From Candidatus Rokuibacteriota bacterium (GTDB taxonomy: Bacteria; Methylomirabilota; Methylomirabilia; Rokubacteriales; CSP1-6), in NCBI GenBank assembly GCA_003221515.1, contig QHSI01000143.1:1-47334 (forward strand): a DNA stretch of 47,334 nucleotides, read 5' to 3'. This document shows positions 3,150 through 7,805 of this stretch, one piece after another. A model generated the notes under the pieces. The model was not told the origin of the DNA, ran no database searches, and was given only the letters and a program-made list of their open reading frames with translations. The translations under genes and the position numbers were made by a program. The stretch's first letter is position 1, and each line of letters begins with the position of its first letter.

Positions 3150-3704
3150 TCAGCGAGCGATCAGCGCCCGCAGCAGCTCGCGGCCCTTGTCGCCGCTCCA
3201 CGGCCGGGTGCCGATCGCCTTGCCCACCAGCCGGCCGCTGCGGTCGACCAGGAACACGGTCGGCGTGGCGGTGATGCCGTAGCTCCGTCCGAGGGCGGCG
3301 CTCTCGAGGTGCAGCACCATCGAGGTGACGTTCTGGCTCTTCACCCAGCTGGCGAGCATGCGCCGATCCTCGCCGAGATTGATCGCCAGCACCACCAGCC
3401 CCTGGTCCCCGAACTCCTGGTGGACCCGCTCCATCGCCGAGGGCAACTCCCTCGCGCAATACGGTCAGGTCGACTCCCAGAAATAGAGGACGACGGCGCG
3501 GCCGCGCAGATCGGCGAGCGAGACCGGCGCGCCGTTGAGCGAGTCCAGCGTGAACGCCGGCGGTGACTGGTCGAGGAGGGGGACGATCTGGAGCTCCACC
3601 AGCAGGTCGCCGAGCGCGTCGGCCGCGGCAGGAGCCGGAACGAGCCACGCGCCGGCGGCCAGGAGCACGAACGCCATCACCACCGTCCAGCGACTCTTTC
3701 GCAC
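3150..3704 (-). CDS. TlpA/SoxW-like thioredoxin, probable selenoprotein (TGA = Sec at residue 80)
   Basis: Read straight through an in-frame TGA at 3465-3467, the gene gives 184 residues: a signal peptide (about 1-28, ending APAAADA), a TlpA/AhpC-TSA fold, and a cis-Pro loop ATPTVFLV. The TGA falls exactly where the first active-site Cys belongs: [15 protein letters not shown], giving a UxxC motif in place of CxxC. Sequence on both sides stays in the same frame with family-like content, so this is not a frameshift. A hairpin that fits bacterial SECIS rules starts 10 bases after the TGA. The GTG start abuts the soxB stop, so the gene closes the soxYZ-B operon. Sox operons often carry a periplasmic thioredoxin (SoxW/SoxS) that keeps SoxY reduced, and that role is inferred. 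The alternative is a nonsense mutation. Confidence 0.78.
3438..3467 (-). other. Candidate bacterial SECIS element with Sec TGA
   Basis: The TGA occupies 3465-3467. Ten bases later the transcript forms CGAGGG (3454-3449), loop AGTTG (3448-3444) and CCCTCG (3443-3438). The stem is six perfect GC-rich pairs, the loop has five bases with G in the second position, and the loop is 16 bases from the TGA. These values fall within published bacterial SECIS criteria (short GC stem, small loop with an early G, loop about 16-37 nt after UGA). Confidence 0.65.
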
Positions 3705-5399
3705 TCAGCTCTCCTTCGAGGCGACGACCCGCACGCGGGGGCGGGTCCCAAGCTTGATCTTGCCGACGCTCCGCAGATACTCCGCCACCACGTCCCACAC
3801 GGGCGGTCCGTCGGCTTCGCCCAGGCTCGCCCAGCCGGTCGCCTTGTAGTGGCGCCCGGGCTCGAGCGCACGCCCGGCCACACGGATGTCGAAGATGCGC
3901 CGGCCGACGCGCCGGGTGGGATCGATCGCGTAGGTGAGGCCGCCCAGTCGCACCATATCGCCACCCTGTCGATAGTACGGATCAGGATGGAACAGGTTGT
4001 CGGCGACGTCCTCCATGACCTGATGGATCTCGCCCCCGGTCATCTGGCGCACCCAGGTGTTCGGATAGGTCACCGCGGTGTGCGTGTACACGTCTTCGAG
4101 CGTGATCTCCTGCCCCGGCAGGATCGTCGTCCCCCAGCGGAAGCCGGGCGAGAACCCGATCTGCGCGTCGGCGCGCCGCAGGAGCGCGTCGAGGATCACC
4201 TCGTCGAACGTGCCGTTGAAGTTGCCGCGCCGGTAGAGCAGCGTCTCGGACACCGCGAGGCGCTCGCCCAGCGCCGCTTGGTGCGGGCGGCGGATCTCCT
4301 CGATCAGCTCCGTCATGGCCGGGTCTTCGGGCAGCGCCTGAGCGAGCACGGGGAGCAGCCGATACCGGTGGCCGGCGACCCGCTTGCGCTGGACGTCGAG
4401 ATCCAGCCGGCTCAGGAACTTGCCGTGCGATCCCGAGTTCACGACGAGCGTACGGCCCACCTGGATCGGCTGAGGCAGCGCGTCGTGGGTGTGGCCGCCG
4501 AGAACCACGTCGAGCCCGTGCACCCGCCCGGCCAGCTTGAGGTCGACGGCCAGACCGTTGTGCGAGAGCAGCACGATCAGGTCGACGTGCTTGTCGTCTC
4601 GCAGCTCGTCGACGAGCGTCTGGACTCCGTCCTCGCGGATGCCGAAGGTGAGGTCGGGCACGAAGCGCCGGGGATGGGACACCGGCGTGTAAGGGAACGC
4701 CTGGCCGATGACTCCCACACGGACGCCGCCGACCTCTCGGATCGTGTACGGGTTGAAGACGCGATCGCCCCAGCCTGCGACCGAGACGTTGTGCGCGATG
4801 AAGTCGCCGGCGAAGAGTCCCCGCCGCTCGCGGTCGCCGAAGAGCTCGCGCACCCGCTCGAGGCCGTGGACGAACTCCCAGTGCGGCGTGAAGACGTCGA
4901 CCCCGAGCTCGTTGGAGACGCGCACCATGTCCTCACCGCGGCTCCAGAGGGTGGTCGCCGAACCCTGGAGGGTGTCGCCGCCGTCGAGGACCAGCGTACG
5001 GCCGGCCCGCTCCGCGCGGATCCGCTTCACCAGCGTCGCCAGGTGCGCGTAGCCGCCCATCCGCCCGTAGCGCGCCGCCAGCGCCGGGAAGTCCAGGTGC
5101 GTGTAGGCGTAGGCCTCGACCGAGCCGGGAGCGACGTGATAGGCGCGCAGCAACGCCTCGCCCGTCAGGAAGGGCGCCTTCCCCCGCTCGGCGCCGACGC
5201 CCAGGACGGTGTCCGGCTCCCGATAGAACACGGGGCGGAGCGTCCCGTGCGTGTCGGTGAGGTGGAGCAGCGTCACGTTGCCGAGCGGCTCGAAGGCGAG
5301 CAGCCGCGCCGGACCGTCAGCGGCCTCCAGCGCGCGCGGCGTCAGGCCCGCCCCCGCCGCGATCGCCAGGAGCTTCACGAGGTCACGGCGGGAGATCAA
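3705..5399 (-). CDS. soxB: Thiosulfohydrolase SoxB
   Basis: 564 residues from a TTG at 5399. A Tat-type signal (SRRDLVKLLAIAAGAGL) is followed by a 5'-nucleotidase-like dimanganese metallophosphatase domain. Metal motifs are LLHLTDTHG (~46-52), LDGGDTLQGS, LLSHNGL and LGGHTHD, and the C-terminal nucleotidase domain follows. The length matches SoxB. In the Sox pathway SoxB acts in the periplasm and hydrolyses sulfate from the sulfonate group of the S-sulfo-SoxY conjugate. The TTG start overlaps the TGA of the preceding mini-ORF (TTGA), supporting both the start choice and translational coupling. The gene lies downstream of soxY and soxZ and directly upstream of the Sec thioredoxin. No soxCD genes are visible in the window. 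Confidence 0.93.
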   Translation of the reverse strand: MISRRDLVKLLAIAAGAGLTPRALEAADGPARLLAFEPLGNVTLLHLTDTHGTLRPVFYREPDTVLGVGAERGKAPFLTGEALLRAYHVAPGSVEAYAYTHLDFPALAARYGRMGGYAHLATLVKRIRAERAGRTLVLDGGDTLQGSATTLWSRGEDMVRVSNELGVDVFTPHWEFVHGLERVRELFGDRERRGLFAGDFIAHNVSVAGWGDRVFNPYTIREVGGVRVGVIGQAFPYTPVSHPRRFVPDLTFGIREDGVQTLVDELRDDKHVDLIVLLSHNGLAVDLKLAGRVHGLDVVLGGHTHDALPQPIQVGRTLVVNSGSHGKFLSRLDLDVQRKRVAGHRYRLLPVLAQALPEDPAMTELIEEIRRPHQAALGERLAVSETLLYRRGNFNGTFDEVILDALLRRADAQIGFSPGFRWGTTILPGQEITLEDVYTHTAVTYPNTWVRQMTGGEIHQVMEDVADNLFHPDPYYRQGGDMVRLGGLTYAIDPTRRVGRRIFDIRVAGRALEPGRHYKATGWASLGEADGPPVWDVVAEYLRSVGKIKLGTRPRVRVVASKES

Positions 5400-5527
5400 T
5401 GACGGATCCCCGGGACGGTCAGCGCGCGGCCGTTGTCGGCTCGCGTGTCGACGGCCGTGTCTGCGCAAGCGCCGCCCGGCGCCAGGAGCGCGACCCACGA
5501 GAGCGGCCGCGCTCGGGCGCGCCTCAT
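5396..5527 (-). pseudogene. Vestigial soxA: 43-codon ORF bridging soxZ and soxB
   Basis: This ORF begins with ATG 10 bases after the soxZ stop and ends with a TGA that overlaps the soxB TTG start. The predicted 43-residue product has an Arg-rich, signal-peptide-like N-terminus. Its last residues, DNGRALTVPGIRH, match the C-terminal tail of the SoxXA fusion encoded nearby, DNGKPISVPGIR (8 of 12 identical, the rest mostly conservative). Standard sox operons have soxA exactly here, between soxZ and soxB. The simplest reading is an in-frame internal deletion of an ancestral soxA that removed the haem domain but left the signal peptide, the C-terminus and the coupling to soxB. There is no CxxCH, so it cannot be a cytochrome. 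It may survive only as a translational bridge. Confidence 0.65.
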
Positions 5528-5537
5528 CGCGCGGCGC

Positions 5538-5870
5538 TCACGAGAATTTGATCTCGGCCGTCCCCTCGTAACGCCCGCCGCTGGTGTCGAAGAACTGGAC
5601 CTTGAGCAGGCCCGGGTCGGTGGCCTTGAAGGTGAACGAGAAGAACGGATTCTCGGCCACGCTCTGGGTCGTGTCGAAGGTGGCAACCGTCTTGCCGAGA
5701 TAGGTCACGATCACTTTGTTGATGTAGTTGTAGTTCTTCTGGACGATCTTGCCCTGTGCGTCGCGCTCGATCCGCTCCATCGGGTGGATGACGAGCGACC
5801 GCACCTGGACGACGTCCCCGGCCTTGATGCTCGACGGAACGCGGATCCGGACCTGCCCGATATCTGCCAT
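5538..5870 (-). CDS. soxZ: Sulfur-carrier partner SoxZ
   Basis: 110 residues. Recognised by MADIGQVRIRVPSSIKAGDV, then VRSLVIHPMERIERDAQGK, the tract YINKVIVTYLGK, and a C-terminal beta-sandwich ending in GTAEIKF. SoxZ has no signal peptide and is exported in complex with Tat-targeted SoxY, with which it forms the SoxYZ carrier. The ATG at 5870 lies two bases after the soxY stop; the longer in-frame start at 5885 would overlap the soxY coding end and lacks family support. The next ORF downstream is the soxA relic. Confidence 0.93.
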   Translation of the reverse strand: MADIGQVRIRVPSSIKAGDVVQVRSLVIHPMERIERDAQGKIVQKNYNYINKVIVTYLGKTVATFDTTQSVAENPFFSFTFKATDPGLLKVQFFDTSGGRYEGTAEIKFS

Positions 5871-5872
5871 GG

Positions 5873-6367
5873 CTAGCCGCCGCACCCGCCGACGGTGACT
5901 TTGACTTCGCGCTTCACCTGCAACAGGGTGCCGTCGCTCTGCTCCACGATCGCGCGCACGTCGCCGGTCTCGCCGAGCCGGATGTTCGCGCCCATGAACG
6001 CACGGCCGGCCTCGGGCGCGAGCGTCACGCGCGTGACGATGGGGATCCGGTTCTTGTCGGCGAGGACGTAGATGTGCCTCACGTAGCTCGTGGACGTCAT
6101 CGGCGAGTCGACGCTGACGGAGACGGGAACCACGGCACCGTTCTCGGCGATGAGCGGCACGTCGAGCTTGATCGCGGGGGAGCCGTCTTTGATGGTCTTG
6201 CTACCGAAGAGGCGCTTCATCGCGTCCTCGACGGTCTCGTTCTGGCCGAGCGCCTGGGCGTGCGCCGTCTGGGGCGTCACGGGGTCGAATCCGCTCGCGA
6301 CGGCGACGCCGAGGGCACTCAGCGTCCTCAGCACCGTCCGCCGGCTCACACGACGATTGCCCATCAT
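5873..6367 (-). CDS. soxY: Thiosulfate-carrier protein SoxY
   Basis: 164 residues. A Tat signal (SRRTVLRTLSALGVAVASG) is followed by a carrier domain, and the protein ends in the canonical GGCGG swinging arm with Cys162. In the Sox cycle SoxXA links thiosulfate to this Cys, then SoxB removes sulfate. GAGGAGG lies about eight bases before the tandem ATGs at 6367/6364. It is the first gene of the minus-strand sox operon and is divergent from the SoxXA fusion. Confidence 0.95.
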   Translation of the reverse strand: MMGNRRVSRRTVLRTLSALGVAVASGFDPVTPQTAHAQALGQNETVEDAMKRLFGSKTIKDGSPAIKLDVPLIAENGAVVPVSVSVDSPMTSTSYVRHIYVLADKNRIPIVTRVTLAPEAGRAFMGANIRLGETGDVRAIVEQSDGTLLQVKREVKVTVGGCGG

Positions 6368-6482: not shown

Positions 6483-7805
6483 ATGCGCCAGAACCAGGTC
6501 CTCGGACAACTCTTGCCTCTCGCCGCCCTCCTCGTGTTCGGTTGTGTCGCGGGAACGGAAAAACACGAGGCGTCGGCCCCTCCACGGTGGACGTCTCGGG
6601 CGATCCCCGAGGCCCGGGGCGAGGTCAAGGAGATCGGCGGCAGAAGAGTTCAGGTCCGTTACAACGAGGAGCCCTTCTCGACCTTCACCACCAACTACGA
6701 GCGGTGGCCCACCTATGCCTACAACGATGCGAGGACCTTTCCCCAGCCGACTCGAGTTCCTCTGCCCAGCCTCAAGGGCGAACCGGGGCGGGGGCGGCAG
6801 TTGTTCATGGCGCGGACCAAGGCGCCCTGCACCGGCTGCCACCTGATTCCGGGAGACGACATTTGGCCGGCCGGAAGCGTCGGGCCAGATCTGTCGGTCA
6901 TCGGCGATCGGCGTTTGCCGGATCGATATCTCTTCGAGCTCATCTGGGATGCCCGCCTGTTCTTTCCCAACACGAGCATGCCCCCATGGGGACCGGCCGG
7001 AATATTGTCGCCCGAGGAGATCGTCCACATCGTCGCCTTTCTTCAGACGCTCAAAGGGAACCCGCCGTTTGTGCCGCCACCGGAGCGGGATGCGACGCGG
7101 AACCCGCATACGCGTCAGGCGATACCGCCCTACTATGGCGACAACTTGGATCCAGCCACGAATCCGGCGATCGTCTTCGCTGAAAATGCCCTGGCCGCGT
7201 GGTCCACGAAGGGACCGGCGGGCAAGGCCTGCGCGGATTGCCACGCGGGCGGCCCGGAACGGGCCATGAGAGGCGTGGCAACGAAGTATCCGAAGTATCT
7301 CTCCGCGTACGGGCGGGTCATGTCGGTTGGGGACTTCCTGACCGTCCACGCTCCGCAGACGACGGGCAGAGAGATGCTGGCCGAGAGTGCGGACAATCTC
7401 AACATGACCATGCTCATCAGAATGCAGTCGAACGGGCTGCCCGTGAACGTCGACGTCACGAGCCCGGAGGCAGCGGCAGCCTACGAGCGTGGGCGGGCCG
7501 TGTACTTCAAGCGGGTGGGACAGAGAAACCACGCATGCGCCGATTGCCACGAAACGGATCGGGGCGCAGGCCGGTTCGCGGGCGCGCGCTTCTTGAGCGT
7601 GGCAAACGAAGGGCTGACCAAGCACTTCCCGCTCTGGTTCATGGCCTATCGCGGGGTCTGGGACATCCGGAAGCGCTTCCAGGTATGCATGCTGCCGCTC
7701 GGCATGAACTATCTACCCGCCGACGCGCCAGAGTACGCCGACCTCGAGCTCTACCTCACCGCATTCGACAACGGCAAACCGATCAGCGTGCCCGGAATCC
7801 GGTGA
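6483..7805 (+). CDS. SoxX-SoxA fusion cytochrome (triheme L-cysteine S-thiosulfotransferase)
   Basis: 440 residues from an ATG preceded by GGAG. The N-terminus is a hydrophobic export signal with FGC at about 19-21, possibly a lipoprotein site. Domain one (about 95-190) is SoxX-like: C116TGCH and the axial-Met loop NTSMPPWG. Domain two (about 230-440) is SoxA-like with C250ADCH and C352ADCH. It ends in QVCMLPLGMNYLPADAPEY-DLELYL, where Cys402 corresponds to SoxA's catalytic haem-ligating cysteine that carries a persulfide. SoxX and SoxA are normally separate subunits of SoxAX, which joins thiosulfate oxidatively to SoxY. Here one polypeptide would supply both. It is divergent from soxYZB, whose operon retains only a soxA relic. 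Confidence 0.85.
   Translation: MRQNQVLGQLLPLAALLVFGCVAGTEKHEASAPPRWTSRAIPEARGEVKEIGGRRVQVRYNEEPFSTFTTNYERWPTYAYNDARTFPQPTRVPLPSLKGEPGRGRQLFMARTKAPCTGCHLIPGDDIWPAGSVGPDLSVIGDRRLPDRYLFELIWDARLFFPNTSMPPWGPAGILSPEEIVHIVAFLQTLKGNPPFVPPPERDATRNPHTRQAIPPYYGDNLDPATNPAIVFAENALAAWSTKGPAGKACADCHAGGPERAMRGVATKYPKYLSAYGRVMSVGDFLTVHAPQTTGREMLAESADNLNMTMLIRMQSNGLPVNVDVTSPEAAAAYERGRAVYFKRVGQRNHACADCHETDRGAGRFAGARFLSVANEGLTKHFPLWFMAYRGVWDIRKRFQVCMLPLGMNYLPADAPEYADLELYLTAFDNGKPISVPGIR

Follow-up and report, generated by a model that had tools for sequence, protein, structure and literature searches.

Neighbouring bacterial genes are translationally coupled only if they overlap or lie very close together, and at 20–38 nt coupling is nearly abolished (PMC10666635); the −4 NTGA overlap is the commonest coupled arrangement (PMC12548453). 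The E. coli Keio deletion strains retain a 34-residue in-frame scar peptide meant to preserve downstream coupling; for most genes tested this length was too short, and 41–60 residues alleviated the loss of downstream protein (PMC8547470). In G002/AR31, the closest relative of the genome studied here, the sox operon runs soxY-soxZ-soxXA-soxB, with soxXA a fusion gene of 435 codons.

The window analysed here, a stretch of 47,334 nucleotides from a Candidatus Rokuibacteriota bacterium, holds a 43-codon mini-ORF between soxZ and soxB (Table 1). It resembles the operonic soxXA of G002/AR31 in position, in its 5′ and 3′ ends and in its stop/start overlap with soxB, but it has neither of the cytochrome domains and none of the three CXXCH motifs. 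As in the Keio scars, the start region and last codons are kept, the interior is out in frame and the next gene is a candidate for coupling; the stub is, however, natural, longer and free of foreign scar sequence. It shares the TTGA overlap of upstream stop and downstream start with NTGA pairs, although here the upstream gene is a domainless relic and coupling is a prediction. Ordinary bacterial pseudogenes and gene remnants likewise arise when a deletion disables a redundant paralogue, whereas this stub keeps frame, start and stop. A literature search of titles and abstracts of open-licence papers found no report of the stub or of Rokubacteria soxXA paralogues. We read the stub as a remnant of operonic soxXA that carries ribosomes on to soxB, with a probability of about 0.6.

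Table 1. Features of the sox region in the window
Feature	Position	Strand	Evidence
TlpA-like gene behind soxB	3150..3704	−	in-frame TGA at the first Cys of CXXC (FWEST-U-PYC)
soxB, TTG start	3705..5399	−	TIGR04486 thiosulf_SoxB, E=6e-237
TTGA stop/start overlap of mini-ORF and soxB, −4 spacing	5396..5399	−	arrangement shared by intact G002
Mini-ORF, 43 codons, very probable relic of operonic soxXA fusion	5396..5527	−	5′ and 3′ ends collinear with G002 operonic soxXA; net loss 1,176 bp
Retained soxXA 3′ end (DNGRALTVPGIRH, then stop)	5396..5437	−	last 14 codons, 38/43 nt, E=3e-12, ungapped (blastn)
Probable island, soxXA codons 79–83 (DTRA), between two deletions	5438..5452	−	15-nt exact in-phase match to G002 gene interior
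Retained 5′ end, codons 1–25, signal peptide	5453..5527	−	67/85 nt identity, E=1e-17, ungapped (blastn)
soxZ	5538..5870	−	PF08770, E=1e-20
soxY	5873..6367	−	homologous to soxY in relatives' operons; order soxY-soxZ
Intact diverged soxXA fusion paralogue, three CXXCH motifs	6483..7805	+	TIGR04485 SoxX + TIGR04484 SoxA

Origin of the mini-ORF

Read from 5527 to 5396, the mini-ORF encodes MRRARARPLSWVALLAPGGACADTAVDTRADNGRALTVPGIRH, followed by the stop codon. Aligned to the operonic soxXA of G002/AR31, it is collinear with both ends of that gene and lies in the syntenic slot between intact flanking genes, and a chance ORF is ruled out by these two end matches. The first-pass annotation had seen an N-terminus resembling a signal peptide and a tail like that of the SoxXA fusion encoded on the opposite strand. 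The G002 alignment bears out both, although the relatives' operonic soxXA gives the stronger tail match. The loss of the haem domains, which had also been noted, is borne out too: no CXXCH motif is present, and a family search with the mini-ORF gave no match. SoxXA cytochrome fusions are recognised by their SoxX and SoxA domains and the CXXCH haem motifs that these carry; by this criterion the stub does not belong to the family but is what remains of a member. We regard it as very probably a relic of the operonic soxXA fusion, and such doubt as is left concerns mainly assembly error.

The signal-peptide-like N-terminus could also suggest a functional small secreted protein or lipoprotein. This is scarcely credible: the lipobox is degraded (GGAC, as against SAGC or GAGC in relatives), the mature part would be about 20 residues, no family is matched, and the stub occurs in this one genome and in none of the others scanned.

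Relative to G002, the net loss is exactly 392 codons, a multiple of three in length and 90% of the gene. Only 4 bases separate the two end matches in the stub. Around them, the 15-bp string CGACACGCGAGCCGA matches G002 soxXA exactly at codon 79 in a shared reading phase, a match length reached by 0.6% of random fillings of the 4 bases (p about 0.006). Because this island matches the soxXA interior, the alignment suggests that two deletions, 159 and 1,017 bp long and each in frame, took place at microhomologies containing CGA; the alternative is one deletion plus a 3-nt insertion.

The structure of the junction also bears on whether metagenome assembly fused the start and end of a soxXA that is whole in the cell. 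With 191 contigs and 2.3% contamination, the assembly is a fragmented one, the stub is confined to a single genome, and the relatives (Candidatus Rokubacteria, several from a single soil project) are metagenome-assembled genomes too. Against this, the sequence contains no N, the junction keeps the frame and encloses an internal island, unlike a simple join, and the S-to-T change in the tail and the lipobox change match none of the intact copies. The missing part has no close form on any other contig, the best copy elsewhere in the genome being 70% identical. We therefore consider an artefact very unlikely.

The slot in relatives

In all seven same-genus relatives with the locus (G001, G002, G003 and G005–G008), soxZ and soxB flank a full soxXA fusion of some 435 codons. 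In a second public genome collection, soxXA is full or near-full at 20/20 Rokubacteria loci with soxZ and soxB on one contig; this collection shares species with the first. The relatives' operonic genes carry SoxX (TIGR04485) and SoxA (TIGR04484) domains and three CXXCH motifs, and among the loci compared only the window is without a full or near-full soxXA in the slot. The first-pass annotation had placed the relic at a soxA site. A relic does stand in place, its tail similarity is statistically significant, and the lost gene was the soxXA fusion: because a full or near-full soxXA stands there across the Rokubacteria loci, the slot is a soxXA slot, and a relic of a separate soxA is ruled out.

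In another Rokubacterium, the soxXA tail has been rearranged in this slot as well. At one locus (L063, 4623–4834), the final 75 nt of the soxXA region are duplicated with 96% identity 137 nt downstream, between soxXA and soxB, and TGATG ends each copy.

Other soxXA copies

The + strand fusion, divergent from soxY, is under purifying selection (dN/dS 0.16 versus G002). In the tree it forms a clade apart from all operonic soxXA of the genus, in most of which it occurs, G001 being an exception. Its tail (DNGKPISVPGIR) resembles that of the stub through true homology, but this paralogue is not the source of the stub, which matches the relatives' operonic soxXA more strongly. Nor did the stub arise because the + strand fusion arose, as the proposal of a soxA deletion after the fusion had taken over would require; G002 and G005–G008 carry the diverged paralogue alongside a full operonic copy, which rules this out.

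Contig C177 of the same genome (G000; locus L035, 6243–7665) carries an orphan soxXA fusion of full length, which follows a soxZ fragment encoding the C-terminus, and no soxY or soxB match was found near it. Its identity to the operonic soxXA of G002 is 70%, and in the tree it does not group with the operonic copies of the genus. These two features leave a move of the lost copy to C177 unsupported, and by them the gene may be a horizontal transfer or belong to a contaminant contig.

Spacing and possible coupling to soxB

The stub ATG lies 10 nt past the soxZ stop codon (5540–5538), and the stub TGA overlaps the soxB TTG at 5399 (CATTGATC), the intact frame and overlap being as the first-pass annotation had described them. 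Both spacings, +10 and −4 nt, fall within the criterion for coupled pairs (−4 to about +10 nt). Without the stub, soxZ and soxB would be 138 nt apart, beyond coupling range. Of the remaining two frames across the retained tail, one stops 19 nt short of soxB and the other enters soxB in frame. The 43 residues of the stub compare with the 41–60 that were alleviating in E. coli scars (PMC8547470).

The overlap itself is already found in G002 behind an intact full soxXA; it is thus older than the deletion and not its consequence. In the other relatives, the soxB start lies 2–12 nt on, counted from the first base of the soxXA stop. Ribosome-binding matches at the relatives' soxB starts, G002 included, are weak (−1.5 to −4.2 kcal/mol), as opposed to strong ones in the window at soxY (−10.6), soxZ (−8.2) and tlpA (−7.1), which suggests that ribosomes generally come to soxB by way of soxXA. 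In the window, the match is −2.4 kcal/mol for the mini-ORF and −5.7 for soxB; the latter surpasses those of the relatives, and soxB may thus do without coupling.

These values lend something to the idea that the stub is a passive relic, left by a recent in-frame deletion of redundant soxXA and not yet decayed, with no role and with soxB using its own start. That the overlap is ancestral, that the soxB match is moderate and that an intact soxXA paralogue lies in the window all fit such a relic, and a deletion would be in frame by chance in 1/3 of cases, or 1/9 if there were two events. The spacing geometry, on the other hand, favours coupling, and under the two-deletion reading both lengths are multiples of three. 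We hold a passive relic to be possible but doubtful.

Under the reading we prefer, a stub that carries ribosomes on to soxB, the operonic soxXA fusion has lost about 392 codons in frame, probably in two deletions at the short repeats CGA.ACGC and CGA. The loss would be tolerable because an intact diverged soxXA paralogue adjoins it just upstream on the opposite strand. The stub, most likely without protein function, would be translated from its ATG and would deliver ribosomes to the soxB TTG via the TTGA overlap; soxB would then depend on the stub, hence the survival of the frame. Such a bridging role is plausible and mechanistically sound, and we infer it at slightly better than even odds. 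If the stub has a role, it is probably only to pass ribosomes to soxB. More tentatively, the locus might be a natural counterpart of an engineered knockout, in which successive deletions took 90% of a redundant gene and selection kept a short frame since soxB starts efficiently only via the stub.

Selection on the frame

Compared with G002, the stub has a combined dN/dS of 0.45, with 0.58 for the signal segment and 0.21 for the tail (33 synonymous sites, giving no power to test for selection). Between intact genes, the same segments range over 0.23–2.0 and 0–0.3, respectively, and the stub values lie inside. The flanking genes have a lower ratio than the stub as a whole (Fisher p=0.014), though the signal segment is fast in every case. 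Selection for coupling, which the first-pass annotation had proposed, is unproven, as the stub ratios match the same segments of intact genes; of that proposal the overlap stands, and dN/dS is uninformative. The deletion may simply be recent, since the values lie within the intact-gene range, and a passive relic would agree with this lack of both special constraint and decay. The ORF is still open after 22 differences from the G002 pieces, which speaks against passivity, but 22 random substitutions would leave it intact with p = 0.34. Frame survival and dN/dS are thus compatible with a recent passive relic and with a maintained bridge alike.

A TlpA-like gene behind soxB

The gene behind soxB most likely encodes a selenocysteine TlpA-like protein. 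Of 19 homologous stretches from Rokubacteria loci, 18 keep its in-frame TGA and one has TGT, and a nearly invariant hairpin (CGAGGG-AGTTG-CCCTCG) lies about 13 nt 3′ of the TGA. In the TGT homologue, the hairpin loop is altered to AGCTG. SelB and tRNA-Sec are both in the genome. Earlier work has recorded TlpA-family selenoproteins of the UGC type, as well as a selenoproteome of very large size in Methylomirabilota (PMC13188914). Ordinary annotation would cut this gene into two.

Implications for sox operon evolution

If the stub does not act as a bridge, the locus still documents cleanly how an uncultured, sulfur-oxidising lineage of soil bacteria lost a paralogue, and it cautions that an annotated "SoxA-like" small protein may be a mere scar. 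If it does, the locus shows an operon shedding a gene while protecting the expression of the next one. Relics in coupled operons would then be predicted to be biased both towards in-frame lengths and towards sizes of some 40 codons or more, a signature open to testing across whole genomes.
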